Positions 26,201 to 51,915 of a stretch of 64,000 nucleotides of DNA are shown piece by piece (within the stretch, counting starts at the first letter, position 1; the number at the start of each line of letters is the position of its first letter). The translations under genes and the position numbers were made by a program. The DNA lies in contig JAYXKI010000013.1 in the NCBI GenBank assembly GCA_037892935.1, positions 1,178,001 to 1,242,000 of the forward strand, read 5' to 3'. The DNA is from Phlebopus portentosus (lineage: Eukaryota > Basidiomycota > Agaricomycetes > Boletales > Boletinellaceae). The notes under the pieces are model-generated. The model was not told the DNA's origin. It was given only the letters and a program-made list of their open reading frames with translations, and searched no databases.

Positions 26201-26207
26201 TGAGTGG

Positions 26208-26291
26208 TATGGTGTACCGATGGGGAAAAAATTATTCCCCCCCCCCCTAAATAGTATAGTTGCTAAATTCAGTAATTTTCCCTCATGTGAC
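26208..26291 (+). repeat. Left terminal inverted repeat of the giant element
   Basis: Begins TATGGTGTACCGATGGGG, then an A/T segment, C11, TAAATAGTATAGTTGC, and ends CCCTCATGTGAC. It matches the reverse complement of 51,527-51,610 along all 84 bases. Looser similarity (A-run, G-run, TTCCC, C-run) continues for about 50 bases inward. Confidence 0.95.
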
Positions 26292-26480
26292 AAAAAAAGG
26301 GGGGGAGAGGATTTGTCCCTTCCCCCCCCTTTTGGCCCCCCCCCTTTTTGGCCCCCCCCCCCTTTTTGGGCCCCCCTCCTTTTTGGCCCCCCCCCCCCCC
26401 TGTTTGGAGCACCCCCCCCCTTTTTGGAGCACCCCCCTTTTTTCGGCCCCCCCCCCCCCTTTTCGGGCCCCCCTTTTAGG
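26292..26480. repeat. C-tract minisatellite inside the left end
   Basis: Irregular tandem units of roughly 18-22 bases, each a run of 6-15 C followed by TTTTTGG with variants (TTTTTGGAGCA, TTTTTCGG). The complementary strand has many G-runs and could form quadruplexes. The right end has only one short counterpart, so the array expanded on the left. Confidence 0.85.
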
Positions 26481-26799
26481 CAGTCTCCATCCCTTTAGAC
26501 TACAACACTACAACCCAGCTATGCTATCTTCGCTATAGATGAACTGTATAAGATCATCAAACAAATTCCAAACAGTCTTACTGTAGTGATGACTATAGAC
26601 AAACATCTGAGAGATGTTGATAAAAGTACCCTTGGAACGGCAACATCCATTTGCTCAACATTATTATCCTCTTTGAGGTTCTCTTGAGTATATTGACCAA
26701 AGTGATCACAAGCCAAATTGGGCTTATATCAAGGAGAGAGACATGCTGAAGACTCTGATTTCTCATTATGAATAGGGCGGAGCACTTTCAGCTGCTACT

Positions 26800-29700
26800 T
26801 CTACTAAACAAGCAGGTTCATCGTCTCCACAGGTAGATATATCTGTTTGCAAGCCAACTGAATTACAGAAGGAGCCTGAGGAATTCTGAACTAACCTTGA
26901 GGCATACCAAAAAGAAATGGGTGTTGGTACTATCAAGCTTTGTGAAGAAGTTCTGCAATACCAGCATGAATCCAGTCAACTGCATGCAGCGTTCACAAAG
27001 ACTAATGCGAGGATTGAATTCCTCAATGGTGAGTTTACTTCCTTTGTGTCCTCCGCCAGTCAAGCTCACCATTTGGGTCAGAGCAGCATCGCATGGCTCA
27101 GGAATAGTGTATCATGCATGAGCGAGAAGCTCAAAATTTGCAGAAACGGAACTGACAACTGCACAATTGATACACATGTCTGGATATCACATGTTTCCAT
27201 GCCGCTGAAGAATTAGCCTCTGCTAATACACAGATCGAGTGATTGCGGAATGAATGCTCCAATCTTTGTACAAAAAAAGAAGATCCTGTTTACTTACTCA
27301 TCTTGTGATTCATATTAATTTGAGATGTAGAACTTGAATGTGCAGACCCAATTAATTGATGAGAACAAAGCTCTATCTCTGGAGCAGTCTTGAATGGCGG
27401 ACTTGGTTGCCAATGTGCAGAAAATGCACAATGACACTGACAAGGCAAATGGCAGCGATGGGCGAAGATTTGAGTCCCACATCCATAATCTGGAGAGCCA
27501 GGCGTAAGTGTTCCTCTATATCACATTTGCTATAGCGCAGTAACATCCAATTTTTGATGCTTTAGCCAGGATCTTCGAACTCAGCTGTCCCACGAGTGTG
27601 AGTCCACGTGACACAGTCAGACAAATTTCATTGCAGAAGGATATCGAAGTCCAGGAAATGTAAATTAAGGTTGATCGCTCTGCAAGTTAGATACTTCTGA
27701 AAACGTCTCCTACATTATTGAATATCATGACAGGTGGAGAACTTATCAAAGGTCCAAGAGTCTTTTGTGGAGGCTGAGACAAGTTGGAGATAGCTACAAG
27801 AACGAGTGGATGAGCTTGTCAAGCAGGTGCAGATAAATAAAGAAAAGACTTCCATTTACGAGCGATGTACTTCCTCGGCCACTATCACAACTGGTGACAA
27901 TTCACGTCCAGCTGCTGGCGAAGATGGCTCGGAAAGGTTGAAGTCATTGAACTCCGGTAAGTTTGACCATATTTTTGTATTCACTGGTTATTGACTTTCT
28001 TGGTACCATGTAGGGCCACGTTGAAGGCTGCCAAAGTTGATCTTGCCGCTGCCCGCAGTCATGTGCAGCAATTCCAGGAAATCAGCCGGGCTAGTGAAGC
28101 TGCTTTGCAGTCATTGTCTGCCACGCATGGCGAGTATAAGGCATTGACTGAAGCTCAGATTGCTAAAGTCGAAGTACAAGAGCTTATTCGTCCTCCTCAT
28201 CATATGCTGATCTTCATTGTATCTAGGCTGAATGGAAGGCACTTGACAAGAAAGCATCATCTCTGCAGGACGAGATGATGCAACTTAATACAAAGAATGG
28301 TGAGCTCCAGCAAACACTCGAAAAGGAACGTGAAACATATGCTCAGGACAGAAAGATGCTGGAGGACACGGTTGTTGATATCACTAATGCTAAGATGAGC
28401 TCGCGCACCAATCAAACATCTCATGAGAACAAGATACAAGAGCAGATGGAACGTGCCAAGGTGGGTCTATTATGATGTCAAGAGCATCAGTGAACTTATC
28501 CGCTGTATAAAGGCTGCTGAAGAGAAATATTCATGTGAAATCGTCAATCATGCCGAGTCAATCGAAGTCATGGACACTTTCAAGAAGGAGCTCAGCGAGG
28601 TACGGGCTTCTTTACACGAGAAAAGTTCAAGCTGAGACTGCTTAGGCAAATTGGACCGCATCGAAAGCTAGTTGGAACCAGCAGCGAGAAGTTCTTAACA
28701 AGGAGATTGCAGATCTCACAGCCCAGTAAGCATAGCTATTCGTTCTCTTCCTTATAGATCTCTAAGCAAGAATATAGTTGCAAAGACCTTGCGGCACGAA
28801 TGGCCTGCTTCACCGGCACCTGGAGTCTGTCAGTTCACAGGCTCCTTGTATACATCAAGCTGCGGATTCAGACACGAACATGTCAGAGCCGGGTGATGGT
28901 GACAATGTGGATGGCCGTGTAGTGGAGCTGCATTCGTAGTCGCCTATCTGCACAAGGAGAAGGAAATCATTAACCTTCAACTGGAGCTCTCCAAGAGGAG
29001 AATGCATGGCAAAAGGCACAGATCAACCATCTCAGCCTCAGGCTCTTGAGGAAACAAGGACGGCACTGTCAAATGTTCATCCATACCATTCTGCTTATCC
29101 TTACAATGCATACTAACGCTTTCAAAAGGAGCGTGAAGAAGTGGCAGAGGCTATCACTAATTCTGCTGAGCATGCCGAACTGTTGAAGAGGATCAACCAA
29201 CTCAACATTTTCCATGAAAGCAATGTCACCCTTTGTGCAGAGTGAAGCACAAGCTCACAAAGCACGCCAGCTTGAGACAATGCTCAATCACCTCCAATCA
29301 GAACTGAATCTGCTTAAAGAAGAAGCGAAGACGGCCCACACTGAGCTCTATGCCAGGAACTCTCAGATTCACGGAGACAAGAGCTGTCAATGGAAGGAAC
29401 GGAATGCTCAGCTTCTTACAAAGGCAAGTAAAACTGATCCATATTTATAGTATTTATACTTGCAGGCTTATTGATGACGACTAGTACGATCGTATTGACC
29501 CAAATGATGTCCAAGCTCTCAAGGACAAGACCGAAGACTTACAGATCGATCTCCATAAGGCCAAGGAAGAGAAGATGGCTTACACTTGCCGAGAAGGATG
29601 CTTAGACTAAATTTGTATGTTTGGCTCACTTTTGAAACAGATGCTTCGCTGACCAACTGACCTTACAGCTTGAGGACATGCAGACTGCACTCGCCGACTT

Positions 29701-30150
29701 CCAAATGAGATACTCATCTCTAGGGAAAGAATCTCACAACCGACTTGGGTAACTGAATCATCAGATTTCTAAGTTTAATGAGACTGTCGCTGAGCTGCGA
29801 AAGCAAGTCAAGGACCTGTCCAATGAAAAGGAGTGCCTTGCCAGTCAGGCTGCAGTGACGACATCATCAGATTCTCTGAAGACTCAACTAGCAGCTGCAG
29901 TCCAGGAGAAAGAGACATCAGTGAAGTTACTAGCCAACAAAACGAGCAGAGTGACGAAGGCTGCCACTGATCACGAGGTTGCTTTGGTGAGTGTACTGAG
30001 TTTTGACTACCAGCAATAATTTCTTTAGATTTTATCTAGTCTGCTCCCTGTGAGTAAAGGACAAGTTACTCATGGGGAAACACAAGCAGGAGCAAAAGCA
30101 GGCCGAGACCGCCGCTACTAAAAAACTGCAGGCTGAACTGCAGAATCCAG
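26800..30150 (+). pseudogene. Decayed partial copy of nucleoporin TPR / MLP1 (coiled coil)
   Basis: A series of plus-strand segments, separated by intron-like gaps and stop codons, encodes heptad-rich coiled coil. The most telling are ATLKAAKVDLAAARSHVQQF (28,016), SLQDEMMQLNTKNGELQQTL (28,258), MLEDTVVDITNAK (28,358), ELSEVRASLHEK (28,590), LNHLQSELNLLKEEAKTAH (29,286) and YDRIDPNDVQALKD (29,487), all as in the central coiled coil of basidiomycete TPR/MLP1, the nuclear-basket protein. Introns are retained, so the copy came through DNA. Stop codons and frame changes (near 26,888, 27,390 and 29,608) rule out a working gene. The region left of 27,700 is a weaker match. It runs directly into a glutamate synthase fragment near 30,185. 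Confidence 0.72.
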
Positions 30151-30184
30151 GTGCAGATGCAGCAGAGATCACCACTCGACATGC

Positions 30185-30475
30185 AAAGGAACTCCATGGA
30201 AATGGTGGAACTCGGAAAGGTCACCGATCCAAAGGAAATTGCTCTCTTACGCAGTCTTATCGAGGATCATCGTCACTATACTGGTTCAGAGGTCGCCAAT
30301 CGCGTTCTTCACGATTTCCATCATCTCCTCTCATTATTCGTTCGTGTCATGCCCTTTGATTATAAACGTGTCCTTGAAGAGCAGGCCGCGAAAGTCAGAG
30401 AGGAGAAGTTGCGTCTCAGTGCCATCGAACTTGTTCCTTCCCGTACAGCCAGCCAAGTTGACCTTGGGTTGATAG
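30185..30475 (+). pseudogene. Fragment of NADH-glutamate synthase (GLT1)
   Basis: About 95 codons of the plus strand match the fungal glutamate synthase region containing [44 protein letters not shown] and [18 protein letters not shown]. The real enzyme exceeds 2,000 residues, so this is a short internal piece. It is joined to coiled-coil sequence on the left and to an Hsp70 piece in the opposite orientation on the right, with no obvious spacer. Confidence 0.85.
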
Positions 30476-31200
30476 ACTTGCATGGCGCCTTGCTGTTGAA
30501 GAGGTCAGAAAAGAGCTTGACAATATGGAGGATACGGGTGGAACCGCTGACAAGGACATTCTTCTCGTAGACATCGGACTTGCCAATCTTGAAGTCCCGG
30601 ATAAGCCTCTCGACAGGCTCAAGCGTGGAACGGAAGAGATCCTGGTCCTGGCACAGCTTCTCGAATCGTGCACGGGTAATCGAGGTGTAGAAGTCGATAC
30701 CCTCGCTGAGCGAATCAGTCTCGATGATCGTCTGCACTGCCGACGAGAGTGTACACTTCGCACGCTCACAAGCAGTACGGAGTCGGTGAAGAGTATGAAG
30801 GTTCGATGAGAGATCTAAGAAAATCAGTGTCAATACCGTGATCGTGCGTCATCGCAATGAATTAAAAATGCATACCCTTCTTATTCTTGCACTTGAACTC
30901 CTGAACGAAGTGGTTTACGAGGCGATTTTCAAAGTCCTCACCATCCAAGTGAGTGTCGCCGGCAGTCGCCTTGACTTCGAAGATACCCTCCTCAATGGTC
31001 AAGAGCGACACATCAAAGGTACCTCCACCAAGGTGCACTTGCCTTGGAGCTTCTTGTCAAGACCATACGCGATAGCGGCCACTGTGGTTTTGTTGATGAT
31101 TCGGAAGAAGTTGAGGCCAGAGATGACACCGGCGTCCTTCGCCGCTTGCGAATCGTTAAAGTAAGCAGGAACAGTGATGATGGCCTCAGTGACGGTACCG
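30470..31200 (-). pseudogene. Fragment of cytosolic Hsp70 (SSA type)
   Basis: On the minus strand the order is [38 protein letters not shown] and AIAYGLDKK (31,190-31,045), [20 protein letters not shown] (about 30,985), [16 protein letters not shown], then after a retained intron (about 30,793-30,866) [29 protein letters not shown] and [16 protein letters not shown] (30,510). The [12 protein letters not shown] phosphate-binding motif expected between the AYGLDKK and IEEGIFEV segments is missing and the frame shifts there. Both N- and C-terminal ends are absent. A retained intron shows DNA-level capture. Confidence 0.88.
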
Positions 31201-31210
31201 TGAAACAGTC

Positions 31211-32569
31211 ATGAATGAGGTGGATGAAGCAGGGACGGAGATGATTTGTAGGTGCTGGGGGTGGATAGAGTGGCATGACAGTACTAGTGGTGGCAAGAGA
31301 CAAAGAGGACGACACGTCAAAATGCATCTAAGTTCGTCTGACACTTGTCACTCAGTCTCGCGCGCGTAGATCTGTGTAGATTTACATAGTTTGATTATAC
31401 AAAATGTAGTCTAGTTCTTATATATCAACTCTCAAAATCTAATCAAGCACCACATCAGCTAGACAAAACTATACAGACTCTTATGTTGCGTGATCTACAC
31501 AGAAATGCATATATCTGTGTACAGAATGTATCTTGTTCTACACAAATTTTTGTGCAGATTTCCTTATCTTGGGTACATACGGCTACACAGGCATGTGTTA
31601 GGGACCTCCAATATGCAGTGACTAGTCAGATAAGCGCTGCTCAGATAAGTATCTTTCAATTTGGAGACATCTTGACTGACACGTCAGTGTCAGCAACCAA
31701 ATAAGGTCACGTGACAGAACTGCGACGCTTTTTCCACTGGAAAAAGCGTCGCACAGTCAAAAATCAATTTCTGCATTTTGATTTACGCCATTTCAAAATT
31801 GACCAACGTCATGAATATTGGATTTCTTTCTGTAATCGCAAGAAATTGCAAGACAAACGTTAAATTACATGGTCTATTCGAATGAATGATTTAGTCATCT
31901 CACTGATTCCATGGATCTGGATCTGGAAATGACATCGGAGGAGCAACTATTGTGAAGTCACGAAGTTGCTTGGCAGGTTATTCCCTTCTATCTTCAGAAT
32001 CATAGAGAGAAGTGCAAGAAGGAATTAGATGCTGTCGGCCGTGAATTTCCTTGCGAGGAGCTCTAGTGAAGAGAAGGTCCGAAGGCATTCTCAGGCTGGC
32101 TTTTTTACGCTATTCCTCACCACAAAAAACAACGTGAAGAAACTCCCAAAACTTATAACATGCAGTATCTTTACTTTACAGAGTTCAAAATCAACAGAAA
32201 TGAAAGGCAGAAACGCCAATAGGAGGTAAAGTACCCTCCAAAAAAAAAAAAAAAAAAAAAAAAAAAACCGAGACGTCAAACTACGATCGTTTTTTCCTCA
32301 GTGTGACCACAGAGCTACATTGGACAATCGCAAAGAATGAACAGCACCGATAGTGTTGAGCTTGACTTAAGAGCTGGTGCAGCTGATTCTCACGAAAGAT
32401 CACGCGAAACGGTAGTTCGTTGTTGTGTGCTGCTAATTTCCGACGTTGACCTATAAGTATATCAGTAGTGGAAATTCAGTTACAGAAGTGGTCTTACTGT
32501 TTCACATAAAACGTTATTCTTCGCACACCATTCACATGTGGTTGGTGGCGTTGTCTGTGGTCTGCGGCA
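31211..32569. other. Non-coding DNA inside the element
   Basis: No supported gene. It contains palindrome copy 1 (31,721), a cluster of CTACACAGA/TCTGTGTAGA words at 31,365-31,595, and a poly-A run of 28 bases at about 32,240-32,267. Confidence 0.5.
31721..31753. repeat. 33-bp palindrome, copy 1
   Basis: Arm TGCGACGCTTTTTCCA with its complement around a single central C. Perfect palindrome. CACGTG lies 7 bases to the left (31,708-31,713). Confidence 0.95.
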
Positions 32570-33805: not shown

Positions 33806-33838
33806 TGCGACGCTTTTTCCACTGGAAAAAGCGGCGCA
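33806..33838. repeat. 33-bp palindrome, copy 2
   Basis: Same arms as copy 1 with one mismatch in the right arm (GCGGCGCA). CACGTG 7 bases to the left (33,793-33,798). Confidence 0.93.
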
Positions 33839-36137
33839 ACGTGCCAAGCTGTGCTCGTCAAATCCTATTTGCCTATTTGAGAGGCAATATGAGCTCAAAA
33901 GTGTTCCAAACTTAAGCTATCATCAAAAGTTTGCTTCGGGAGTGGGAAGAACTGGTTTAACATCGCGTACAGCCTGCAACGTGCAACTCAAATGACTATC
34001 TAGTATTGATTTCAGGATAGATAACGGGATTCTTCTGGAGAACTTTCAACAACGTATCAAGAAGCAGATCGAGGGTGTACTCGTGGCTTGCGGGCTGGAA
34101 AGCAATATCAGATCTATTCTGGTCAGCAATATGAACAGTTCCTTTAAACTTCAATCTCTACCTTGTCGTAAACAACCAGCCATGTATGTGTGCTATTTAT
34201 AGGAACATATATGCGAGCTAAAAGACATAGATTTGTACAGTTTATTTGAGATGGGGAAGCTGAACAAGCCCACTGTCACTATCCCAAAACGTCCGCGCTC
34301 GAGCTGAGGTTCTTTATTTATTTACTTATTTATTTATTTCCTTTTTAAATTTTTTTTATCTGCATTTTTACAGAGGTAGTGGTTCTTACAGCGTTCATTT
34401 CTGCACAAGGTGTCCGTGATATACCCCAGTTCGCATAATGTGGCACCCTCGTAGGTAGTATTTTACATGCGGATCAACGACTGAGTCTTGATCAGTATTA
34501 CTTAGAATTCTCTGATTTTTTTGGTTCATCCTTGACCAAGCGCTTGCTGGAGTTCTTGCCGTACTTTAAGCTTCCACATTATATACATACATTGCTGGCA
34601 TTGATATTTTAAAGCAAGTACTGCCTGTCGTCCATCAAAAGCAAGACCCTGAAGGAATAGGATGCTCGCGGATAGAAGCGGAAGTTTAACAATATTGGTC
34701 TGTAATTTAAAGAAACCCCCTGGGTCGATTACAGGACCCGACAATACCTTCAGATGAAGACTAACATCATGCTATCCAACCAGCATTGAACGTCAACGAA
34801 TTTATTACAAATGACTGTGTCCTTTATAAATCGATTCCGGAGCTGCAGCGAAAGAGCATAGCTCCGTTAGGTTCGGTCCGTAAGATTTTCTGAAAAAATA
34901 TTGCATGTCGAGGAGGAGTACAAGGCAAGAATAGAGAGAGCAGGCGAAGCTATTCGTGAGGCGTATGAGGCAACCACGACCCTGCAGACTCAACTTGACA
35001 TATACATATACACAATCATGGACCGGTCCTTGAAATAGTGCATTTTGATTCTGCTTTTCTACTAAATTTACAAAATTTAATTTCAAAAAAAAGTTATCAT
35101 ATAAAAACGTCATCTTCATTGATTGTCTGCGCAAAATCTCAAGCAGAAATGTTGAGTGTATAAATTGTTATGTCTAATTCATCATTTCAGCCCGAAGTTT
35201 CGAGTTCTGGGTGTCTCCATCTGATATTTAGCATGTTAATTGGATCTGATTCATTCTTGGTCTCTTTTTACTCTGTGAATGTCGAGTCTGATTTGCCTGG
35301 CATAAAGATCACGCACAGGAAGACCTGTCTCGATGACATCCTGAATTTATTTAAAAATAACTATTCAGTATTTCTACTTAAAAATTTGCACGGATGTACT
35401 TTCCATTGCATAAATATCTCCTATACTTTTCGTTTTGTCCCCTGATAAGGTATGTCTCGAATAATTGGATAGAACATTTTTAAGAAGGTGCAGATCACTA
35501 CCAAAAGGGCAGTATCTGAGCTATATCTCCACAGCTACACTACGGAAATGCATGAATTTTTTTCTGACAGTAAATCATGGGTTTACAGACTTTTCAGATC
35601 ATAGAGGTTTTTCTGTGGTCGAGTTACAAAAGGGATGTTTCAGGTGGTGTTTCAAGTGTCTGTATTGTTATAGTAATAGAAGCTTGTCTTGGTTATAAAG
35701 TCCAGTCGCGTACCTTTTTCTTTTCACTCCGCCCATTTTTTTCCCTTATCTACCGGCCTCCGAGTCCGTGGCATTGCTCCTTTCGCTTGCCCACCCATAT
35801 AAGTAGTGAGAGGGATGGTTGGTCAAATGGCGTAAAGTCAGTTGCATCCCCATCATCCATCCCCCTCAGCTACTGGTCAGCTCTATACCCTCCTGTCCCT
35901 TCCCTCTCGCATCCACCCTGTGCTCAAAAGTGTGCATCTTTTGGTTCTGATTCCTTCACTTGGCACCCATGACTGATCATTTTCCACCTAGAAACCAGCA
36001 GATTTTCCGGCACACTCGCCACTTGCCTCCCTCAATTTCTACCCGTTATTGTGTCGGTTCATCCTCCTCATCGCAATCTCGACCAGTTACCCGTTTCGTG
36101 TCTTCTCTCTCGCGTCGTACCGTGATCAGCTGAGAAG
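33839..36137. other. Non-coding DNA and Ras promoter inside the element
   Basis: Short unrecognised ORFs only (for example 34,526-34,744 minus and 35,170-35,445 plus). A TTTA/TTTATT simple repeat lies at 34,312-34,345. From 35,710 to 36,130 the DNA becomes pyrimidine-rich, which looks like the promoter and 5' UTR of the Ras gene. Confidence 0.45.
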
Positions 36138-37062
36138 ATGGATTCTTGGCGTGTCACTGTTTTGGGAGATGGAGGTGTCGGAAAGACTGCCCTCGCCGTC
36201 CAGGTATGCATGATCCTTTGTATTTCTTCAATGAGTATGTCTGACTTCATACTGGCTACTGTAGTTTACGCTGAACTGTTTCATTGGTATGTGTGATGCT
36301 CTACGTACTTCCCTATCTGAAATCTCACTGCTCTGGATCTCGTGCCGGAACTTCCACGTCATTCTTCCCTTCCAGAGGTACGTTAAGCTCCGCCTCACGG
36401 ACTGCTGATTCATCCCATGCCGTTACCTTTACTGACCGTTGTTTTTGTTATCTAGACTTATGATCCGACAATTGAGGATGCATATCGGAAACAGTTGGTG
36501 GTGGACAATAGAATGTGCTTTGTCGAGGTTATCGACACGGCCGGCCAAGGTGTGTATGCCTAAACAATTCACGGTCTGAATGCACCTGCTGATGGCAATC
36601 AATCAGAGGAGTACGCTACATTACGGGATCAATGGGTCCGGTTCGTAATTGGACATATTACTTGCTAGGTCAATATCCGTTGCGATCGACTGATTGCGTT
36701 GTCCCCACAGGGAAGGCCAAGGATTCATCCTGGTCTATTCAATCGCTTCACGGGCAACATTCGAGCGGCTGGAGGTATTCCGCCAGCTCATGTTGCGCGT
36801 GAAGGGCAACAGGCCTATTTTTGTCCTAGTTGGGAACAAATGCGACAAGATGTACGAGCGCGAAGTATCGCGCAAGGAGGGCGCAGCGCTGGCGCGCTCA
36901 TTCGGATGCGACTTCCTGGAAACCTCAGCAAAGACTTCGCACAACGTCGATCGGCTCTTTACGAATCTTGTTCGCGCGCTCCGTCAAACGAGGCAGCCAG
37001 ACCAAAATCCCTCGACGCCGCTCCAGGAGCGCGAAAAGAAGAGTCGGTGTATCATAATGTAA
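36138..37062 (+). CDS. Ras-like small GTPase with CaaX box
   Basis: Signalling GTPase of the Ras family, predicted to be prenylated at the C-terminal CIIM and attached to membranes. Exons: 36,138-36,203, 36,265-36,286, a 2-nt exon AG at 36,376-36,377, 36,456-36,549, 36,607-36,640 and 36,711-37,062. The product is about 188 residues. Motifs: P-loop GDGGVGKTA, effector loop [15 protein letters not shown], switch [21 protein letters not shown] and ETSAK for guanine binding, all intact. The 2-nt exon restores the Glu of the effector loop; without it the frame hits a stop. The first four P-loop residues GDGG replace the GAGG of classical Ras, as I recall from a second basidiomycete Ras lineage. 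Well-formed gene with pyrimidine-rich promoter, yet it lies inside the giant element, so it is cargo. The host's other Ras genes are not visible here. Confidence 0.9.
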
Positions 37063-38352: not shown

Positions 38353-41300
38353 TTATCTATTTGGGTAGACGTATATCGGTTTATACGTGAATTCAATGTC
38401 GGAGAAACGACGGTTGTGTTCCACTTGCTTCTTCAGCCGCTCCATGCGCTTCATGAGAAGATCCTTAAAGTTCTCGTTCGTTCGGAGCCTGTCTGCAAGC
38501 TCCAGCATAACGACTTGAATATAAACCATATCGAGATCAAACTCTTCTGTTTCTTGCCAAGAGGGCTCGGGCGACTCTATGGGGATTTCGGGCGCCAAAT
38601 AGAGGAGATGATTGACGAGGATTGCCAGATCGGCGAGTTCTTCTATGGGATACGCTATTTTCCTCGTATTAGATGCCAGCATGGTGAATCTGATGAATCT
38701 ACTTACTCCTGTTGATATGAGACTCATTCCCAACGACGAGCTCTGCCAGGGCCTTCATCAATACGAGTGGAGCCCTTGTATGCTGCGCGTTCGTGATCAC
38801 GGTCCCGAAGAAGTGCTCATCAACTAGCGCCTGCAGGCTCCTATCCAGTGTCTTGGAACAATAGAAATGCCCCCCGAGGGCAAAACTGTCTTCCAAGGTT
38901 AGGACGGCATGGGGCGTGTTGGGAGGTAGATATCTATCGTCTATTCAGCCGTCATAGATGTTTCAATCGCTAATCACTTACAATTTGTCGCCCTCTGAAA
39001 GATATACACAATCGAACGCCATCTCAGAAATGTTGAACCCATTGTCATCCAAATGGCAGCCATTGTCACGAGCGATCCACCAGGCTTTCGTTCCCTCAAG
39101 AAGGTACACGTGGGATGCGAAACCCGCAGCATCAATATGCACCCTTGAATATGCGCTCGTGTGCCCTGCCAGTGCCCATTGTGAAGCCAAACCATCCAAG
39201 CCGAGCATAGTTTTTGGCATCCAGAACGCTGGATTGCTGTGGGCATACTTCGAGAAGTCGTCGAATTCTCTGATGGATGGCCTTCTCTGAGCAAGCCTTT
39301 ATGCGCGAAATATAGTTACTTACAGAGGCAAGCAGTTGTGCAGGAGAGGAATATCCAGCATATTGCAGCATCGTCTCTTGTGAAGATTATCTTTATCTTC
39401 CTTGCGGTCCATCAAGTCGAACAAGAATTCCGCAACAGTCATACGCCTCATCACTGTGTCTAAGAGGGTATTCTTCTCACGTACCAGAGTGAGGTCTAGA
39501 GTGGATGAGCTTTGCAACCGCAGTGAGATGACATATGCTGACCTATGCATTGACGATCAACATGCAGAGCGATCAAATTGCTCAGCTTTGGGTCCCAGAT
39601 TCCCTTCAAGCCGTGCGGCCGTGACGATGGTGCACCGACTACATGAATGGCACCGCGCTGTAAACATTCCCTGCGCTGCTGGTACGTCAAGCTGTCCCAT
39701 CTGGCACGAGAAAAAGTCTGAAGTCGAGCTTGAGGATCTTCAATACGCCGGTCCGTGTAGAGTTTTAAGGTCTCCAATTCTGTAGTCATTTCTTTCTGTG
39801 ATAGTATTAGTACGCGCCTGCAAAGCTCGTGTATGACTTACCATTGATTGCCAGATGGGAATTGTGTGAGTCACTTCTTTGAACTCCCACACATCCGCCT
39901 CCTCGGAACTGAGAGTATCGGTGGTCACAGCAAGTTCTCGGGTCGATCTATTAACAGATACGAGCTCGTTTTGCGCTGTGGAAGTCGAGGAAGGATGGCA
40001 CGGAATTTTGACAGTGAACTTTAACATAATGTTCGTAGAAGGCTGGAAAGATTTAGTCAGAGTACTAAATCGAAGAATGGCACTCACTGTGGCAGGATCG
40101 TGAAGGAATTCTCTCGTCAGCACTTTAGTAGAAGCGAAATCTGTCGTGAGATCCGAACGAAGCTTCGGGTCCTGCCCGGCTTCCTCTGTCTCGTCCCCCG
40201 TCTCATCCTCTATCTCGTCTTCCGCCTCGTCCTTCCTTTGTCGTCGCCTTTTCTTCCTCTTTACTGTAGCTTTCATCTTCCGAACCCTCTCTCGTTCCTC
40301 TTCATTATGTTTCATCAGAGCTCGAAGTGCTTCTCGATCATGCTGAGCCTCCTCTCTTTCGAACAGTGCCAGTTCTTCCGCCGTGCTAAGCTTCTTTGTC
40401 TGTTCGTTTTCCACTACCCCTTTCCGTCGCTGAAAGCAACTTGATACGAGCCACTCAATGATTAGGTAGATGACATACCTTGCGTGCTCCTGTACCATTG
40501 CTGTTCTGCGAGCTATCGTTGTCTATTTCGGATTCTTGGAAAAAACTGTTCATGAGTTGTACTCATTTCCAAGAAGAGGGCATACCCGATTTGCGCTTCA
40601 CGGCACTTTGGACGCTCTCAATTATCCATTTCTCGGGCGTGTCCATGTTCAGATCAATGACCTCCCAGTGTCGCCTCTTGGTCTTCGGTGGTTCTACCCT
40701 TGAAGCAAGGGCTTGCACCATCAGCAGGCTGGGTGGACTTTCCTCCTGCATCTTTTGCCATTCGATTCGGAGGTCGGCTTTCTGAATTTGTGAAGCATCA
40801 ATCAGCGGTTTCCCATCCTTGATGATATTTTTGCTCTCCCATTCAGTCATAGACGTTGACATCGAAGGTTCGAATGAATTCCGTCCTCCGACTGCCATTT
40901 TGAAGATCGTCTTCATAAGGTCGTATTCGATATCGCGCCTCTGGTCATGTGGTTGTAGAGCGGTTACATTCATACCCTAGCAAGCAATTAAATACTCGAC
41001 GAATAACTATGCATTCACACATACCTTCAGAATCTGGGATAAGCCCAGGCGACATCTTGAGCTACTTGAGTACTGCATTGGTGCAAGAAGACAGACAGGG
41101 GATATAGCTGTCGCTATATACAAGGGTCTGAGAAAGCTATAGTCATCCAACTCGCGAAGAGTCTGCGGAAGGTCCTTGTAGAATTCCCTGTAGACTGTCA
41201 AAAATTTGAAGGTCCTCAAACGTACAAACTTACTGGACAATCTGTACAAGAGGTGTTTCATCATAGCTGTCGTCATCAGCAGGACGCATAGCCTCTCTCT

Positions 41301-42817
41301 AACGATGGAATTTTCAATTTGTGTCCAAATGGGCCGACGGCGAGGGAGAAACATACCTGAGCTAAAGCAAAGACTCCTAATGCCGCTTGGCAAAAATTGT
41401 CTTGGACTTTTGCTAGTTTTAAACGACTCTCCGCGTCTACTACACCTCCCACGAGAGATGTGAGAATTGATGCCTTTTGCTTCTCTGCATTTTCGTAACT
41501 GATTTCGACGGGCTGATCATTGACGGCGGGTTCAGGAGCTTGGATAGCCTTCCGTTTTACTTTTCTCCCCTTCTTCGCCGGCGGCTGAGGCTGCTGTACA
41601 GGCTGCTGTACAGAAACGTTTTCGGGCCGATATGTTTGCCAAACTTCTAGGAAGTCGGCTAGAGTATTGTTCCACTTTATCGCAAGGTTATATACTTCCT
41701 TGTGTTTCTCAGAGTCCTTGATGGATCCCGGAAACATGTGAGGTCTTGGCAGTGGACGGTCGTCATGCTCTGGACGTTCCCTAAGAGTCCATGCGAAGCG
41801 ATCGGCAACGATAAGCTGAAGGAAGGCATGCAGGAACTCGGACTGCGTCGTGCGCTCAAGGTTCCCTCGGAACGCATGTCGTGCGAACGTGCGTGAACTG
41901 GCAGAACTTGCCTCCAATAGGCTTCGCTTTAGTTGCGTTTCGTGGCGACGGACATTTTGAAAAAGGAGCGACGCAATGGATTCCTCATTAAAAAGACTGT
42001 CGGCGTTGATGCCAACAGATTGCGAGATGTGCGACTGCCAAGTATCTGGAGAGCTAAAGTAGGCGACTGAAGCACCAAGAGGCGTCAAGGCCAGTCCACC
42101 ACCTTTACCGGTCAGCGATCGGGTCACGTATATATTAAAAAGTTCATGCTCCAACTTGTCAAGATCGCCCTCGTGCAACGGCGAGACAGCACGTCCTAAG
42201 ACCATCTGCAAGTCATCCATTGAATCTGATACAGCGTCGTCCAAACCGTCTCGAGCCTCAGCCGGACTCTCATCAGCAGCTCCGGATGCGGTCACTTCAT
42301 AATCCATCTCATGAGTAGGCTCCACAGGTACGCTGTTTCCGGATGCGTTCTCCTCAATCTCTGCCGCGTGAGTAATCTCTGTGGGAGGGCCATTAACGGA
42401 CGTCCTCGACGCGGCCTCTATTTCCCCAGTAGCCTCAACGATAGTTTGCTTGGTCGCAGTAGTTGGATCATCTCCAGATGCGTTCACAGAGCCTTGTGGA
42501 CCTCGAGTAGTCTCAGAGACTGGGCCATCTCCAGATGCGTCCGCTACGGATGCCGGACTCAGGGTGACTGGCACGTCTCCACATGAGTTCGCGGCCACTT
42601 CTGTATGTTGAGAAGCCTCAGTAGAATCATTCTGCATGGCAGGTGAGTAGAGCCTGGGTGAGGCCGACAGGATGGGCTGAAGTCCTTTGACAGCCTTACG
42701 TACGGTCCGGCATATGCCGGAGCTAAGCACTTGCGACGCTTTCTCCAGTGGAGAAAGCGTCGCAGCACTCACGTGTCTCTCGAATGAATGTACAGGCGAT
42801 TCCTCTAAGTCACCCAC
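38353..42817 (-). CDS. JmjC-domain protein, large, cargo of the element
   Basis: Multi-exon gene of about 1,350 codons. The first long exon (42,817 to about 41,358) encodes an Ala/Ser/Gly/Glu-rich N-terminus with loose repeats around ASGD, then a helical region. The next exons follow by GT...AG joins: RLCVLLMTTAMMKHLLYRLS, then YREFYKDLPQTLRELDDYSF, a segment from GMNVTALQPHDQRRDIEYD, and a Lys/Arg/Glu coiled coil near 40,300. The JmjC core lies at 39,230-38,870: RVHIDAAGFASHVYLLEG gives the HxD iron ligands, and YLPPNTPHAVLTLEDSFALG the distal His. The C-terminus is helical, ending at 38,353. JmjC proteins are Fe(II)/2-oxoglutarate oxygenases, often histone demethylases; activity here is unproven. 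The start may instead be the ATG at 42,637, because the longer form reads through palindrome copy 3. Confidence 0.75.
42732..42764. repeat. 33-bp palindrome, copy 3
   Basis: Variant arms TGCGACGCTTTCTCCA, with compensating change in the other arm so that the palindrome stays perfect. CACGTG is on the right at 42,770-42,775, so this copy is in reverse orientation. It lies at the 5' end of the JmjC gene. Confidence 0.93.
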
Positions 42818-43848: not shown

Positions 43849-45120
43849 TCAGAACCAAGGATTGAAAGGATTAGCACCCACCAGAACCTCGTATTTTGGA
43901 GCAGCCTTCTTCTCAACGACTTCTGGGTCAGACATCTCCTGATTATCTCCAAAAATCTTGCTTGAGCCGACACCAAGCATCAGCTGATTTGGAGGATAAT
44001 CATCGATGGAGTCATCCGGCAGAAGAATGTCTTCATGGTGGTCAGCCTTATTCTACAGTTTGAAAAAATGACACACTTACTGGAACTCGACGGCTCTGAA
44101 TCTGCGATGGGTACATTAAGACGATGCACAAGAAGTTTGAAAAGAAACAGAGACGTTACCGGAATTTCGTCTAAGTCTTTTTACCTTTACCCCTGGGCTC
44201 GGGCCTGGGCTCAGTGAGCGCTTCACTCGCTGCTTTCCTTTGCCTTTCACAGTCTGAGGAGGCCGATCAACCGTTTCTGTTTCCTCTAACCTGGATGCGT
44301 CATCGCCGTTCAACCAGGACTCATACTCGGCAAGGTCCAAAGGGAATCGCAAGACTAAGCAAGCAATTAGTAATAGATAATTCGACCCGAGGGACTACTC
44401 ACCGAAAATAAGGATTGAATCAGACCAGCCTGACTTCTTACTTTTCTTGGCGAAATCGTGAACAACACCGCCCATCGGATCATCATCTGCACAGAGCAAA
44501 AGCTTCCTGCCTCTCCTACCACAGAGAACCCATGGCATTTCCTTTCCCTTTTCCCAGCCCAAAAACGCTACAAGCTCTTTGAAGAGGCTTGCAACAAACT
44601 CATTGATCTTGCTAAACGACCAACTCATCTTGAACCGTATTCCTTCGAGGTGATTCTGGCATGCAAGCTTCGCTTTACGCAGACGTGCAATGTCGTTCTC
44701 ATCAGGAACAACAGGATTCAACAGTTCCTTATCCTCCTATAGCTGATATCAGCTCCAAACGGGTATATCCCAGAGAAAGACTTACATCTATCCCATCCGG
44801 CATTATGACCACAGTCTTCACAAGAAAGTCCTCGGACTGTCCTCGAAACTATATAGCTGTAGTAAGCATGCATTACTTTCCCACTCTACAATGCTTACCT
44901 TTGATGATTTTGCAGTTTTACGAAAACCCTGCAACGCCTCTAAATGAGCCTTTGAAGCATGCTTAGTTGACTTGAAAGGACTAGAGCTGGCTTGCTGAGT
45001 ATCATCGTCTGAGGACAAGTCATCAAAGATCCGATCTAGGTAGCGCTTTGATTTTTCGCGACGAGGAGGGGAGGAGTCGTCTTCTGACGAAACGTAGATA
45101 GTAGACTTAGACTTTGCCAT
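43849..45120 (-). CDS. Unknown acidic protein with basic nuclear-type segment
   Basis: No family recognised. From ATG at 45,118-45,120: MAKSKSTIYVSSEDDSSPPR, a Ser/Asp-rich start, then exons joined in frame at about 44,861 (FRGQSEDFLVKTVVIMPDGI), 44,739 (EDKELLNPVVPDENDIARL) and 44,354. The middle exon is the best-ordered part, with GWEKGKEMPWVLCGRRGRKL, LLCADDDPMGGVVHDFAK and SGWSDSILIF. The later part carries KGKGKQRVKRSLSPG, a likely nuclear localisation signal. The end reads HHEDILLPDDSIDDYPPNQL and closes FNPWF before the stop at 43,849. One junction, around 44,100, did not resolve in phase. Mixed charge and a nuclear signal suggest a chromatin- or DNA-associated role, as might suit transposon cargo; that is inference only. 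Confidence 0.65.
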
Positions 45121-45642
45121 TCCGCGACAAACGGAGTCAGAATTGAGCGAGGAAAACGAACTAATGGTAAGCAGCGTGATAGTACTGTAAATGGAACAGT
45201 AAACATGTTATATAGTATCGAGGCGAAGATGATTTATTCCGTTTGACGAGCTTTCTAGATTTCGAGCTTCTCTTACCAAGGGAGCCATCGTCAACGACAA
45301 ATGATGAACCACCCTGAAACACTATCTTTAGTGATGTCAATATTATCGGCTGCTGAGATATTCGCAACATTTCTTGGACTGTCGCTTAGGATTACTTGCG
45401 TCTCTCGCACATTTATTTCATCATTTTTGCCAAAGAATTTTCGGCTTGCTATTTCACGCGACTGGTCTGTTTCCATGACCCTCGCGTAAAGGAACTGTCC
45501 CAATTCTAACATACAGATAATAAAGTTCTTGAATACTGACTGCACTGTTGGGAATTTAAGTTACTAACAGTATACTGATACATTACTGCATCAGCCGAAT
45601 TGGAAATGCAGCAAGTAAAAAAAAAAAAAAGAGTTATGACAA

Positions 45643-45949
45643 TCACGTGCATGCGACGCTTTTTCCACTGGAAAAAGCGCCGCAGCCCACATTTTTTTAA
45701 AAAAGGCAGCGAAAGAGCAACGCCTGATGCAATCATTTCTCACAGAAAGTGTGGTCCCTAAAACTCACTGAAACATGCTCTTTGGATAGATCTCTAGCTA
45801 TAGTTTTTGCTGAGCATTCCAGTTCAGGGTTTTTCATTGTCAAATGTCAGAAATGCGACTGAAAAAACGCATTACTCTATAGGCAAGTTAAAAAATTCCA
45901 TCGTGCCAAGTGCATATTTTCAGTAAATTTATATTAGAATAACAAAGCA
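45643..45949. repeat. Tandem array unit 1 (diverged)
   Basis: Starts with CACGTG plus palindrome copy 4 and ends in a stretch alignable to the end of units 2 and 3 (CTGAAAcATG-like words, a run of A, then TTTTCAGTAAATTT versus ACTTCAGTGAACTTT). Shorter and clearly more diverged than units 2 and 3. Confidence 0.65.
45652..45684. repeat. 33-bp palindrome, copy 4
   Basis: Canonical arms with one mismatch (GCGCCGCA). CACGTG 2 bases to the left (45,644-45,649). Confidence 0.93.
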
Positions 45950-46393
45950 GAGATCACAATAATCACGCGCGTGAGCCGCTTTTTCCAGTGGAAAAAGCGT
46001 CGCAACCCTCAATTTTCTACACAGGCGATCGGAGAAATAATGCGATGGAATACTTGACTGCGCAGGGCTCAGAAGTACTTTCGCGTGCTATTTGGGCCCT
46101 TGACGTCACTGAAACATCCCCTTCCGAAGAGTCGTTAGCTGGTGCATATTAAAGTTCTTTTGCTACAGATGCGGCTCGAAAAATAAACGCCGCAGCAAGG
46201 TAAATTAGTAGTTTAAGCATCACGCCGCGATTGATAACAAAAGAACTATTGCTGAACATGCCAGCCTAGCTTCCCATTTTTCGCAAAGGTCTGAAACATG
46301 ACTATAAAAACATGCACTACTCATCGGAGAGTCCAAAAAAACCATTGTACCATGAGCATAACTTCAGTGAACTTTTGTGAGAAGGATGAAAGT
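45950..46393. repeat. Tandem array unit 2 (444 bp)
   Basis: Near-identical to 46,865-47,308 over its full 444 bases apart from a mutated head (CACGCG, and TGAGCCGC in place of TGCGACGC). It ends in GATGAAAGT, the point where the LTR has inserted. Confidence 0.95.
45972..46004. repeat. 33-bp palindrome, copy 5 (left arm damaged)
   Basis: The left arm reads TGAGCCGC instead of TGCGACGC; the right arm and centre are intact. The neighbouring CACGTG has become CACGCG. Confidence 0.88.
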
Positions 46394-46859
46394 TGTAAGG
46401 GTCACGCGCATGTATATTCGATTTCCTTTTCTTTTTCCTTTTCCTTTCCTTATCGTCGTCATCTATACCCGTCCGAACATTCTTTAACCTTCTCCGTTCA
46501 CTCCGACGTCATATGGTCTCTTAGTTAGTTCATTAGTCATTCCCTATTACTCTGCTCCGACGTTCCTCCATGCTTCCTCCGATCCGTCCGACCACATGAC
46601 CTAACCCTGAACCCTATGACATCACACTCCTTTCCTTAGTCGGTAGTCTTTTCCCAGGCTCGTAGGGTATATAGGTAGCTAGTCTCCCTGTAGAGGCCCC
46701 TTGCCTCGACATTCGTTAGATCTCCGGCTATACACTCGCTTTGTCTCTACGTCGGTGCTCACTCCTTGGATTATCTGAGGGGCTGGGTTCTCTTGCTTAT
46801 TAAGGTTGTCTCTTAGTTAGTAGGCATCGGCGATGCGGGCGTTAGGCTGTCGCCTAACA
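46394..46859. mobile_element. Solo LTR, 466 bp, 5-bp target duplication AAAGT
   Basis: Begins TGTAAGGGTCACGCGCATG and ends GTCGCCTAACA, so it has the TG...CA ends of a long terminal repeat. AAAGT flanks both sides (46,389-46,393 and 46,860-46,864). A TATA-like word (GGGTATATAGG) lies at about 46,667. No internal retrotransposon sequence is present, so it is a solo LTR left by recombination between two LTRs. It separates units 2 and 3 of the tandem array. Confidence 0.88.
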
Positions 46860-46864
46860 AAAGT

Positions 46865-47308
46865 GAGATAATAATAATCACGTGCGTGCGACGCTTTTTC
46901 CAGTGGAAAAAGCGTCGCAACCCTCAATTTTCTACACAGGCGATCGGAGAAATAATGCGATGGAATACTTGACTGCGCAGGGCTCAGAAGTACTTTCGCG
47001 TGCTATTTGGACCCTTGACGTCACTGAAACATCCCCTTCCGAAGAGTCGTTAGCTGGTGCATATTAAAGTTCTTTTGCTACAGATGCGGCTCGAAAAATA
47101 AACGCCGCAGCAAGGTAAATTAGTAGTTTAAGCATCACGCCGCGATTGATAACAAAAGAACTATTGCTGAACATGCCAGCCTAGCTTCCCATTTTTCGCA
47201 AAGGTCTGAAACATGACTATAAAAACATGCACTACTCATCGGAGAGTCCAAAAAAACCATTGTACCATGAGCATAACTTCAGTGAACTTTTGTGAGAAGG
47301 ATGAAAGT
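46865..47308. repeat. Tandem array unit 3 (444 bp)
   Basis: Begins GAGATAATAATAATCACGTG and carries palindrome copy 6. Same length as unit 2 and almost the same sequence. Confidence 0.95.
46887..46919. repeat. 33-bp palindrome, copy 6
   Basis: Canonical arms around a central G (reverse-complement form of the central C). CACGTG 2 bases to the left (46,879-46,884). Confidence 0.95.
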
Positions 47309-47520
47309 GAGATAATAATAATCACGTGCGTGCGACGCTTTTTCCACTGGAAAAAGCGTCGCAACCCCCAATTTTCTACATAGGCGATCGGAGAAATAAT
47401 GCAATTGAATACTATTGACTGCGCAGGGCTCAGAGGTATGTTTTGCATGCAATCCGGACTTTCAACATCACCGAAACATAATCTTCCGGTGCCTCACGAG
47501 CCGGTGTGTTTTCTCTCCAC
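47309..47520. repeat. Tandem array unit 4 (diverges rightward)
   Basis: The first ~135 bases match units 2 and 3 closely, then similarity fades by about 47,520. Contains palindrome copy 7. Confidence 0.8.
47331..47363. repeat. 33-bp palindrome, copy 7
   Basis: Canonical perfect palindrome. CACGTG 2 bases to the left (47,323-47,328). Confidence 0.95.
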
Positions 47521-48907: not shown

Positions 48908-50786
48908 ATGGAATTCCCTGCGTTACCAAATCTGTTGGCCTATCCGGTGCCTACTGTGCAAGCCTATGAGCTGTTGGAGCGAACATACGAGCAAGCACGG
49001 GATCTCCTTCATCAACATCGGACAGATCCTTTGCGCTACCGTGCACAACTAGACATCATTAGACAGCGAGCAGCCCCTCTTCTGGATGCACTCTACCGAC
49101 AGATACCAACTGGAGAAATTCCAGCTTTTTGGGTTGAAAATCTTTTGAAGGTGTATGCAAATTTGACCAGTAATCTGAAAGTGGCCATGCAAGCCGGAAG
49201 TCAAAGGTATGGTAGATACATGATTTTTAGTAATAGATGCCATTGAATTTCATAAATAGGGATGCGTTAGACAGAATAACCTTGGCTCCGGTTAGAATTG
49301 TTCACACCCATCTTCCCGGTCGCCCCAGAAAGGTGATTAGCAGGACATTCTTGAACTTGGTGCAGAAGGCCGACAGAAGTCTCACTGATGCCCAAGTTGC
49401 AAGACTGACAAAGATGTCGGCGAAGACAGTCGGAAACTACCGAAAGCTGTATGGTATTAGGAAGCAATATTCTGGAATTTCTGATCAGCGTTTGGACGGC
49501 ATTGTGAGGCGGTATAAGCAGAAGAAGCCTGACGCTGGAATTCGTTACGTATGGGCCCATCTTCGTTCCCAAAATGTGAAGGTGCAAAGGCGAAGGGTTA
49601 TCGATTCACTGATTCGGGTGGATAGAGTTGGAGGAGTTCTCAGAAATCAACGACAAATCATAAGAAGGCCTTATAAATCGTTGCGTCCCAATTATTTGTG
49701 GCATTGTGATGGCCATCACAAGTTGATTCGATGGGGCTTAGTTATTCATGGCTTTATTGATGGATTTTGTCGAACTGTGAGTCTGATTGAAAGTGATTCC
49801 TTTTTACTAGACATTAACCCTTGTATCAACAGATAACGGGTTTGCGTGCCAGCAACAATAACAAGGCACAAACTGTCGTCAAACTTTTCCTGGACGCTAC
49901 CAGGTCCTATGGCATTCCATCAAGAGTCAGAGGGGATAGAGGTGGAGAAAATATAGATGTCGCAAGACTGATGATTTTTCTTCGTGGAGAAAATCGCGCA
50001 TCTTTTATCTGGGGAACGTAAGGATCTTTCTTCGCTCCTCTGAACTTTTTTTTACCTGTTGGTTAGATCTACACGGAATACAAGAATTGAGCGCCTTTGG
50101 GTGGAGGTTGGAAAGCAGTTCGTACGCCGCTGGAAGGCATTTTTTCAGCGCCTGGAGGACTTACATGGATTGGACATCGATAACCCTCAACATCTCTGGC
50201 TCCTTCACAAGTTGTTCTTGCCGCACATAAATGATGACTGCAAGATGTTTCGAAGAGAGTGGAATGCCCATACATGCAGGGGGAGTTCCACACTAAATCA
50301 AAGCCCAAATGTAAGACAATAGCTGCACCATGCATTCTGTCATTAACCTCAATTTAGGTTCTTCGCCTCCAGGGAATCATTAAACATGGTGCATATGACG
50401 AAGACTGTGACAAGCTGTCTCCAGAGCAGGTCCGAGAGATATGCAATCAACACTTCGGGCAGATTGAGAACAACGAGCACGACCTACATGTAGAGTCAGT
50501 ACAAGTACCTGAAACGAGGTTTCCATTCTTTGATCCCCAGACAGAGGACATCTTTTTTGACTCTGTCAGGGAGGCTATGGAGCGAGGGATAATGCCACAA
50601 GGTTTCGGGATTCGTCAGGAAGAGTGGCCAGATGACGGGTATCCCACTGGAGAGATTCTGAAAGTCGGAAAGAACCCAGAGGTACTTATTGCTTTGCCTC
50701 TAGAGATTTGGTTTGAAAGAGCTTTGCTGTGGGCTAGAGGATTGTATGTCATGCTACGAATTCAGGAAGGAGACCTGGAGCTTTAA
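48908..50786 (+). CDS. rve-type DDE integrase (transposase) of the giant element
   Basis: Likely strand-transfer enzyme of the element. Five exons join in frame: 48,908-49,206, 49,260-49,776, 49,833-50,017, 50,067-50,310 and 50,358-50,786, giving 557 residues without a break. The N-terminus (MEFPALPNLLAYPVPTVQAY) is helical. Residues around 140-200 (LTDAQVARLTKMSAKTVGNY) form a helix-turn-helix-like DNA-binding region. The catalytic core is RNase-H-like: first Asp in YLWHCDGHHKLIRWGLVIHG, second in PSRVRGDRGGEN, and Glu in TRNTRIERLWVEVGKQF, a complete D, D, E triad. The core ends near LFLPHINDDC; about 150 residues of mostly acidic C-terminus follow. I recall the WHxDGxHKLIRW family as unnamed integrase-core proteins in mushrooms and some animals. 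Its position next to the right terminal repeat and its intact state make it the prime candidate to mobilise the element. Confidence 0.93.
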
Positions 50787-51096
50787 TTGCAGTGATAGAT
50801 ATTTTATGTCAAGTAGTTCTGAGGATATGCGAGTCAATTTTTTCAGCTAGAGATTAACAATGGATGCCATTTATCATCATTGCAAAACTTGAGACTGTGT
50901 ATAGCAGTGACTCTTTCCGATGTATAAATGTGCTCTTTCATCTTAGTCACTCCTGGATGGTGAGAATCTGGCTAAATCTGATACTAATACCTCATAAACA
51001 GGTCAAATGTGTTCAACTAAACGCATTTATTTCACTGTCAGTATTAATTTAGGTCTTGCTAAAATGCTGATGAAGGTCAAGTCAGGTATAACCCGC
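50787..51096. other. Integrase 3' flank, nothing recognised
   Basis: About 310 bases between the integrase stop and palindrome copy 8; no supported ORF. Confidence 0.5.
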
Positions 51097-51129
51097 TGCG
51101 ACGCTTTTTCCACTGGAAAAAGCGCCGCG
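51097..51129. repeat. 33-bp palindrome, copy 8
   Basis: Canonical left arm; the right arm has two changes (GCGCCGCG). No CACGTG next to it; instead it borders the CACATG array. Confidence 0.9.
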
Positions 51130-51440
51130 GAAATCACATGTCCAGTGACATGTGCATGCCAATCACACGAATGTCACATGCCGATCACATGCGTTTGACG
51201 TGATCTCGATTTTTTATCAGATGACCTGACCTGAGTCACATGTAAGTCGCGCAAATCTCACATGCTTTTAATTTACTCAAATAGTACATCAGGTGATCGC
51301 TTCACGATCACATGAATCATCACATGGTGAATAGGTATTTATCATGTGACCATAAACTGATCACATGATTGTCACACCAATTTCATATGACGTTAATCTT
51401 CCATATACATGCGTCATATGATCGTTTTATGATCACATGA
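51130..51440. repeat. CACATG (ATCACATGA) array next to the right end
   Basis: At least ten copies of CACATG or its complement CATGTG in about 310 bases, many in the longer form ATCACATGA or TCACATG (for example near 51,135, 51,175, 51,183, 51,237, 51,308, 51,360 and 51,433). The terminal repeat itself also contains TCATGTGAC. Dense short repeats just inside an end are typical transposase-binding sites. Confidence 0.75.
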
Positions 51441-51526
51441 AGTTTATCTGTCTGCAAATTTTCGTGAAACGAAAATTTTAACAAAAGGGGGGGGGAAGGG
51501 AAAACCCCCCCCTTTTTTTTTTCTGC

Positions 51527-51610
51527 GTCACATGAGGGAAAATTACTGAATTTAGCAACTATACTATTTAGGGGGGGGGGGAATAATTTTTTCCCCATCG
51601 GTACACCATA
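51527..51610 (-). repeat. Right terminal inverted repeat of the giant element
   Basis: Reverse complement of 26,208-26,291 over all 84 bases, ending CGGTACACCATA. Followed directly by TGAGTGG (51,611-51,617). Confidence 0.95.
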
Positions 51611-51915
51611 TGAGTGGGACTCCGGACTGCGCAAATTTCTTGTTGCACGTGATGGAAAAGATCACGCTTGCTTATCACGTCCTCAGCTTGAATCGGAGAT
51701 TCAACTACGAACATAAACAATATTTAGAGGGAGAATATGGAGTGTACATAAACTCAGAAGTCCGAGCTGACGGATATTCATTGAGAATATCGGACAGCGC
51801 GACTTATCGGACAGTTCAAACTGTGATAGTTTATTTAATTTGTACAGCTTGTCGATATACACGTGATCCGAATATATAGGAAAGTGGAAGAGACTTCAGA
51901 GAAAGCTCGCTACGA

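Follow-up and report, generated by a model that had tools for sequence, protein, structure and literature searches.

The locus described here raises the question of whether a 25-kb island bounded by matching ends is a single mobile element and, if so, what moves it and what its cargo does. The island lies in a stretch of 64,000 nucleotides of contig JAYXKI010000013.1 (positions 1,178,001 to 1,242,000, forward strand) of assembly GCA_037892935.1, deposited as Phlebopus portentosus; this whole stretch is called the window, and unprefixed positions refer to it. We consider it highly probable that the island is a 25.4-kb DNA transposon, likely of the IS3EU superfamily, and we predict that it is moved as one unit by its own DDE transposase acting on 84-bp ends. 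This reading draws its strength from the ends, the 6- or 7-bp target duplications at three of four copies in the genome, the joining of the flanks at two copies, the contents common to the copies, an unbroken DDE reading frame of 557 amino acids, and a related strain in which the homologues of the neighbouring genes carry consecutive locus tags with no annotated gene between them.

Ends of the element and its copies in the genome

The element proper occupies 26208-51610 (25,403 bp), and the features that define its boundaries are the following.

26201..26207, no strand, left target-site duplication TGAGTGG
26208..26291, + strand, left terminal inverted repeat, 84 bp, starting TATGGTG
26301..26487, + strand, subterminal C-rich short repeats of the CCCCCCTTTTTGG type, repeat family D6
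51527..51610, - strand, right terminal inverted repeat, 84 bp, ending CACCATA
51611..51617, no strand, right target-site duplication TGAGTGG

An earlier sequence-only reading had proposed a large mobile unit with perfect 84-bp inverted ends and a 7-bp duplication. Comparison of the arms bears this out, as they are complementary without a mismatch over 84 bp and at 97% over 91 bp (26208-26298 and 51520-51610, with 25,221 nt between them), and TGAGTGG adjoins the outer edge of both; the mobile unit itself is borne out by the ends, the duplications and the copies elsewhere in the genome. The heptamer is not rare as such, since the window has seven occurrences where shuffles predict 8.4, so its weight lies in the exact abutment on both ends. 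The termini read TATGG..CCATA.

Searching its own genome with the 84-bp end gave 13 matches, which resolve into four element copies and a solitary end. The same set of sites was recovered with the outer 18 bp at up to two mismatches (13 in the 38.37-Mb genome, against one for the backwards control): eight are element ends, four lie in a foldback nested in the C7 copy and one stands alone on C8. Because the 18-bp ends belong to these places, scattered independent short ends, the outcome that had been named as contrary to a mobile unit, were not seen in this search. The sites outside the window copy are listed below.

C15:734471-763029, C15 copy, 28,559 bp, target duplication CAGGTG (6 bp)
C7:741738-772521, C7 copy, 30,784 bp, target duplication GATCAGG (7 bp)
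C13:1000066-1112945, C13b copy, 112,880 bp, rearranged, no target duplication
C8:1360987, short solitary element end

The four copies have most of their contents in common, and identity to the window copy is 98.9% for C15 (24,841 covered bases), 98.3% for C13b (19,851) and 94.6% for C7 (23,951). The C15 copy is collinear with the window copy, with inserts added; an internal inversion is present in both C7 and C13b, the latter also having many inserts. When the C15 flanks are joined they match a short repeat with an uninterrupted relative at 11677-11894, and the left stub matches this repeat over 10 bases, four beyond what the duplication alone explains. The joined C7 flanks give a palindromic repeat that is matched on both sides of the junction and has an uninterrupted relative inside the foldback.

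Two observations concern these targets. The sequence at 11677-11894 is a short inverted-repeat element with 34-bp arms; it has a relative on C15, and this is where the C15 copy inserted. The foldback at C7:772150-772521 consists of element ends plus a piece of the target repeat and separates the inner right end from the outer duplication; the composite of C7 element and foldback seems to have moved as a whole.

The transposase and the superfamily

48908..50785, + strand, transposase gene, 557 amino acids, five exons (48908-49206, 49260-49776, 49833-50017, 50067-50310, 50358-50785)

Pfam confirmed the rve integrase of the sequence-only reading, the protein matching rva_4 at 8.7e-64. It is identical to ACEPAF_9331 of Sanghuangporus sanghuang at 550 of 557 residues (98.7%), with no stop and no frameshift. 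The DDE set is D250, D307 and E342, spaced by 56 and 34 residues. The window protein has the complete set, and an alignment of 35 homologues shows D307 and E342 without variation and D250 with a conservation of at least 90%. A pattern search of the 557-residue protein found no HHCC zinc motif ahead of the catalytic core. Read against ACEPAF_9331, the frame has no stop or frameshift in C13b, two stops in C15, and three stops and two frameshifts in C7. At least 295 homologues were found among 7,996 candidates scored, and the 120 that were listed include many Agaricomycetes, Rhizophagus and fish, with identities of 30-43% over the alignment. Within the genome, matches to PF24764 fall only in the four copies and in a single distant relative, located at C8:1925828-1926389 (all 13 candidates were scored). 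In the mechanism that we propose, the transposase would bind the inverted ends and cut the element out, the excised element would be joined to the target across a stagger of 6 or 7 bp, and repair would turn the stagger into the target duplication.

The sequence-only reading had found no described superfamily for this combination of features; the integrase family and the TA..TA termini do fit one, IS3EU, as, broadly, does the duplication length. We assign the element as a likely member on the strength of its termini, its inverted repeats and the family of its transposase, with duplications of 6-7 bp that are at or near the usual length. The available part of PMC12730594 gives the IS3EU elements of rust fungi TAYGG..CCRTA termini, inverted repeats longer than 30 bp and 6-bp duplications, and that of PMC10045372 gives IS3EU/GingerRoot TA..TA termini, duplications usually of 6 bp and an rve-type transposase without HHCC. 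Compared with the 6-bp length, C15 has 6 bp, the window copy and C7 have 7 bp, and C13b has none. The TA..TA termini and the transposase type are held in common with IS3EU/GingerRoot as described there, while two of three duplications of 7 bp and the long cargo set the present element apart. Ginger1 and Ginger2, with duplications of 4 or 4-5 bp (available part of PMC10045372), were rejected in view of the 6-7 bp seen here.

As far as the available part of the rust study goes, the elements bearing TET/JBP genes resemble ours in the IS3-like DDE transposase class, the TAYGG..CCRTA termini and the inverted repeats of more than 30 bp, and they carry extra genes acting on epigenetic marks, where the present element carries a candidate JmjC-like one. 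They differ in having a TET/JBP gene that lies between those for the transposase and an alpha-kinase, with 6-bp duplications, as against a JmjC-like gene and a captured Ras gene, duplications of 6-7 bp and a length of 25-31 kb. Neither TET/JBP nor alpha-kinase was matched among the element proteins and open reading frames (ORFs) scanned; a genome-wide Tet_JBP search gave no match, but it also gave none in 14 control genomes and is hence uninformative.

The JmjC-like gene and the 33-bp palindromes

38356..42637, - strand, JmjC-like gene model, 13 exons, 1,222 codons, no internal stop
31721..31753, no strand, 33-bp palindrome
33806..33838, no strand, 33-bp palindrome
42732..42764, no strand, 33-bp palindrome located upstream of the JmjC-like gene, about 95 bp from its ATG, with a symmetric arm change (TTTCTCC/GGAGAAA)
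45652..45684, no strand, 33-bp palindrome
45972..46004, no strand, 33-bp palindrome
46887..46919, no strand, 33-bp palindrome
47331..47363, no strand, 33-bp palindrome
51097..51129, no strand, 33-bp palindrome close to the right end

The gene model unites stretches matching ACEPAF_9322 (766/780) and ACEPAF_9327 (381/390) over a 46-bp GT..AG intron, and these two proteins are the homologues found (at least two, among 7,998 candidates scored). The N-terminal part is of unknown kind and the JmjC-like domain is C-terminal. A JmjC gene had been proposed from the sequence alone, and a domain of this type is supported through the S. sanghuang homologue, by PDB comparison and by a sub-threshold Pfam match. 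The best PDB match of ACEPAF_9327 is the KDM7 homologue 3n9l (3.7e-6), followed by PHF2 and PHF8, and by way of this homologue HID (187) and TPHAV (245) of the 390-residue part, both kept in the window protein, align with the iron ligands (HxD...H) of the KDM7/PHF8 chains. With the window exons projected onto the other copies, stops number two in C15 and three in C13b, and C7 is free of them where 3.7 would be expected by chance (P 0.023, uncorrected). Read against the S. sanghuang proteins, the pieces in C15 and C7 and the JmjC part in C13b have no stop; since the two readings disagree, the number of stops hinges on which splicing is assumed. The gene is split by an insertion in C15.

The palindrome occurs eight times in the window element, where none is expected, and genome-wide, with up to three mismatches, 27 of 31 sites lie within the four copies (control 0). 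CACGTG is found near several of them. Symmetric C>T/G>A changes in the arms were considered as compensatory and rejected, as most are at CpG and explained by decay; the sole symmetric change away from CpG is that of the 42732 site, T>C with A>G, present in all four copies. The four palindromes outside the elements (C1:2004423, C1:2732282, C7:1454423 and C9:293581) have one common variant ending GGATCA, as if they were part of another repeat family.

Our mechanism would have the JmjC-like protein oppose silencing of the element by chromatin marks, and the palindromes serve as putative binding sites for an element protein. The available part of PMC12730594 counts VANDAL anti-silencing, SET methyltransferase and TET/JBP genes among transposon-borne epigenetic tools, and a JmjC gene is not named among them in that part. 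Arabidopsis VANDAL transposons carry VANC anti-silencing proteins (PMC5735166, PMC10398659; available parts), and if the role proposed for the JmjC-like protein holds, the parallel would be an anti-silencing factor of the element's own acting at the element's own sequence motifs; VANDAL differs in transposase class, and the candidate factor here is JmjC-like. In our literature search we found no description of a JmjC-bearing IS3EU element or of such a cargo element in Agaricomycetes, nor of such an element with an intron-containing, intact captured Ras gene or with 33-bp palindromes.

The apparently captured Ras gene and other cargo

26720..31621, no strand, block common with a multi-copy host repeat family, with a TPR/MLP1-like coiled coil and an Hsp70 piece on the minus strand
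35003..35656, no strand, piece of another repeat family, with 14 further places at 79-84% over the longer part
35850..37716, + strand, segment that aligns, introns and all, with the host Ras locus on C1 at 92.8% (1,888 columns)
36138..37062, + strand, Ras-family gene, 179 amino acids, uninterrupted, ending CIIM (Pfam Ras 6.7e-41)
43849..45692, - strand, predicted gene orf340, 340 amino acids, de novo model only
46394..46860, no strand, nested repeat of about 466 bp, with 12 near-full-length copies elsewhere

Of the genes that the sequence-only reading had suggested, Ras was confirmed by Pfam, and no BTB gene turned up among the gene models and ORFs scanned (part of the 66 ORFs listed). The Ras segment matches the host locus at 96% over the gene part. 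Over 1,699 sites, 32 differences from the host are common to all four copies, 19 to the window, C15 and C13b copies, and 69 are found in C7 alone; the simplest reading is a single capture before the copies parted. In C15 the Ras frame contains one stop. Both the Ras gene and the repeat block would be passengers acquired from the host, and for the block at 26720..31621 this is probable; the copy counts of its repeat family are lower bounds, from the best 40 of 104 and 40 of 63 candidates scored. At C8:1844776-1854902 pieces of a host repeat family occur in circularly permuted order relative to 26720-34999, and many copies are near contig ends; the permutation perhaps reflects a tandem or circular intermediate. 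The orf340 product matched no Pfam family, and the 466-bp repeat is missing from the corresponding spot in the other three element copies.

Sequence decay and selection

With C7 taken as the outgroup, the 18,981 positions that can be aligned across the four copies hold 35 private changes in the window copy, 115 in C15 and 233 in C13b; 21, 97 and 220 of these are C>T on either strand, and 13, 76 and 166 are C>T at CpG. Because the copy-specific changes are mostly C>T and often at CpG, the element copies are likely methylated. For the window copy the CpG observed/expected ratio is 0.83, compared with 1.04 for the flanks; a simple steady loss of CpG does not fit, as the older C7 copy stands at 0.91. 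Codon tests were made for four genes in three comparisons each, with a null built from non-coding substitutions. The sole standout was Ras, window against C7 (14 synonymous and 12 non-synonymous changes; P 0.003, 1,000 draws, uncorrected); orf340 in the same comparison gave P 0.045. The JmjC-like gene has 89 changes from C7 against 226 expected, with a deficit alike for synonymous and non-synonymous changes, which may reflect a conversion tract rather than constraint.

Neighbouring genes and the site in related strains

The left neighbour gene (22713-25247, - strand) matches S. sanghuang ACEPAF_5611 at 518/521 (99.4%) and the right neighbour (51919-54446, - strand) matches ACEPAF_5612 at 506/509 (99.4%), the latter with one stop under the splicing of ACEPAF_5612 and none under that of the A7U60 protein. 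These homologues carry consecutive locus tags on one contig of 3,073,096 bp, so that this S. sanghuang strain has no annotated gene at the site. The identities to S. sanghuang make it likely that the present genome belongs to this species or a very close relative. In the same assembly the transposase ACEPAF_9331 and the JmjC-gene pieces ACEPAF_9322 and ACEPAF_9327 are on another contig (2,405,440 bp). The S. weigelae genes ACEPAI_8371 and ACEPAI_8370, matching the neighbours at 494/521 and 417/449, are likewise consecutive. In the assembly named S. baumii A7U60 the transposase g7887 and the right-neighbour homologue (526/529) share one contig of 678,261 bp, and the site may accordingly be occupied there. 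The two assemblies named S. baumii diverge relative to this genome (A7U60 99.4% for one gene, ACEPAG best matches 70-90%), and one of the names may be wrong. Three MFS transporter paralogues stand in tandem at 22713-58116, with the element between the first and the second.

To account for the perfect ends, the sequence-only reading had offered recent movement or ongoing conversion. Recent movement agrees with the window copy having the fewest private changes of the four and with the S. sanghuang strain having no annotated gene at the site; conversion is not needed to explain the identity of the ends, since this is the copy with the fewest private changes.

Weighing the explanations

Several findings weigh against the account given here. 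C13b is without a target duplication and is internally inverted, C7, also inverted, shows its duplication only if the nested foldback is counted into the element, two of the three measured duplications are 7 bp where the usual IS3EU length is 6, and the evidence for an empty site in S. sanghuang is the order of locus tags rather than the bases themselves. Neither the transposase nor the JmjC-like gene gives significant codon-level purifying selection between copies in the three comparisons, the transposase ratio being at the null in the C7 comparison and the JmjC-like gene giving P 0.35, 0.08 and 0.86. The Pfam match of ACEPAF_9327 to JmjC_2 (7.5e-4, 19.5 bits) is below the cut-off of 22 and that to JmjC is also sub-threshold, and AlphaFold failed to predict a fold for the JmjC homologue alone (pLDDT 32.6; not used). 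Rearrangement of two copies might also suggest an inverted segmental duplication made by recombination, which we give hardly any credence, since at three copies a short direct duplication flanks the matched ends and at two the target repeat is restored. Starships are large mobile units with host-like genes, present or absent between strains, and moved by a DUF3435 tyrosine recombinase. Size, host-like cargo and strain distribution liken our element to them, yet its transposase is of the DDE type, its inverted ends are long and its host is a basidiomycete, and DUF3435 was unmatched among the element proteins scanned, as the sequence-only reading had said; a Starship-like element is very improbable. 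The genome-wide DUF3435 search, with no match here but also none in 14 control genomes, is uninformative. Just as improbable is a Polinton/Maverick or virus-like element, which would share the retroviral-type integrase, a length above 15 kb and a duplication near 6 bp, but has against it the TA..TA termini and the lack of matches to DNA polymerase B, packaging ATPase, protease or capsid among the proteins and ORFs scanned, in an element of which parts have no gene model. A new superfamily next to IS3EU, marked by its 7-bp duplication and giant size, has in its favour the 7 bp at two of three copies against the usual 6 bp (PMC10045372, available part), but the C15 copy of the same family has 6 bp, the termini and integrase family fit IS3EU, and the homologues, at the 30-43% identity given above, are widespread in Agaricomycetes, Rhizophagus and fish among the matches listed; we regard it as improbable.

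What the cargo does is a separate matter. That the transposon is as described, with the JmjC-like gene and the palindromes as passengers without a role in its life, is a substantial possibility, though short of probable: codon-level constraint between copies is not significant, the projected exons contain stops in C15 and C13b, the C15 gene is split, and two separate proteins cover the gene in S. sanghuang. Speaking for a role are the 1,222-codon frame open in the window copy and without a stop in C7, the iron-ligand motif that has been kept, and the concentration of the palindromes within the four copies. That an element-borne anti-silencing factor of the histone-demethylase type is recruited via the dispersed palindromes and erases histone marks is put forward tentatively, as a rather unlikely reading.

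Large cargo-carrying mobile units in fungi have mostly been discussed as the tyrosine-recombinase Starships of ascomycetes. The transposon described here would be a basidiomycete unit of 25-31 kb that has long inverted ends and a transposase of the DDE type, and its cargo would include an entire signalling gene taken from the host as well as a candidate eraser of chromatin marks. If the anti-silencing reading were true, a cut-and-paste transposon of the IS3EU class would fight chromatin silencing with a factor that parallels the TET/JBP genes found in other fungal transposons, and the element opens a direct test of whether a transposon-borne JmjC protein shields its element from silencing.

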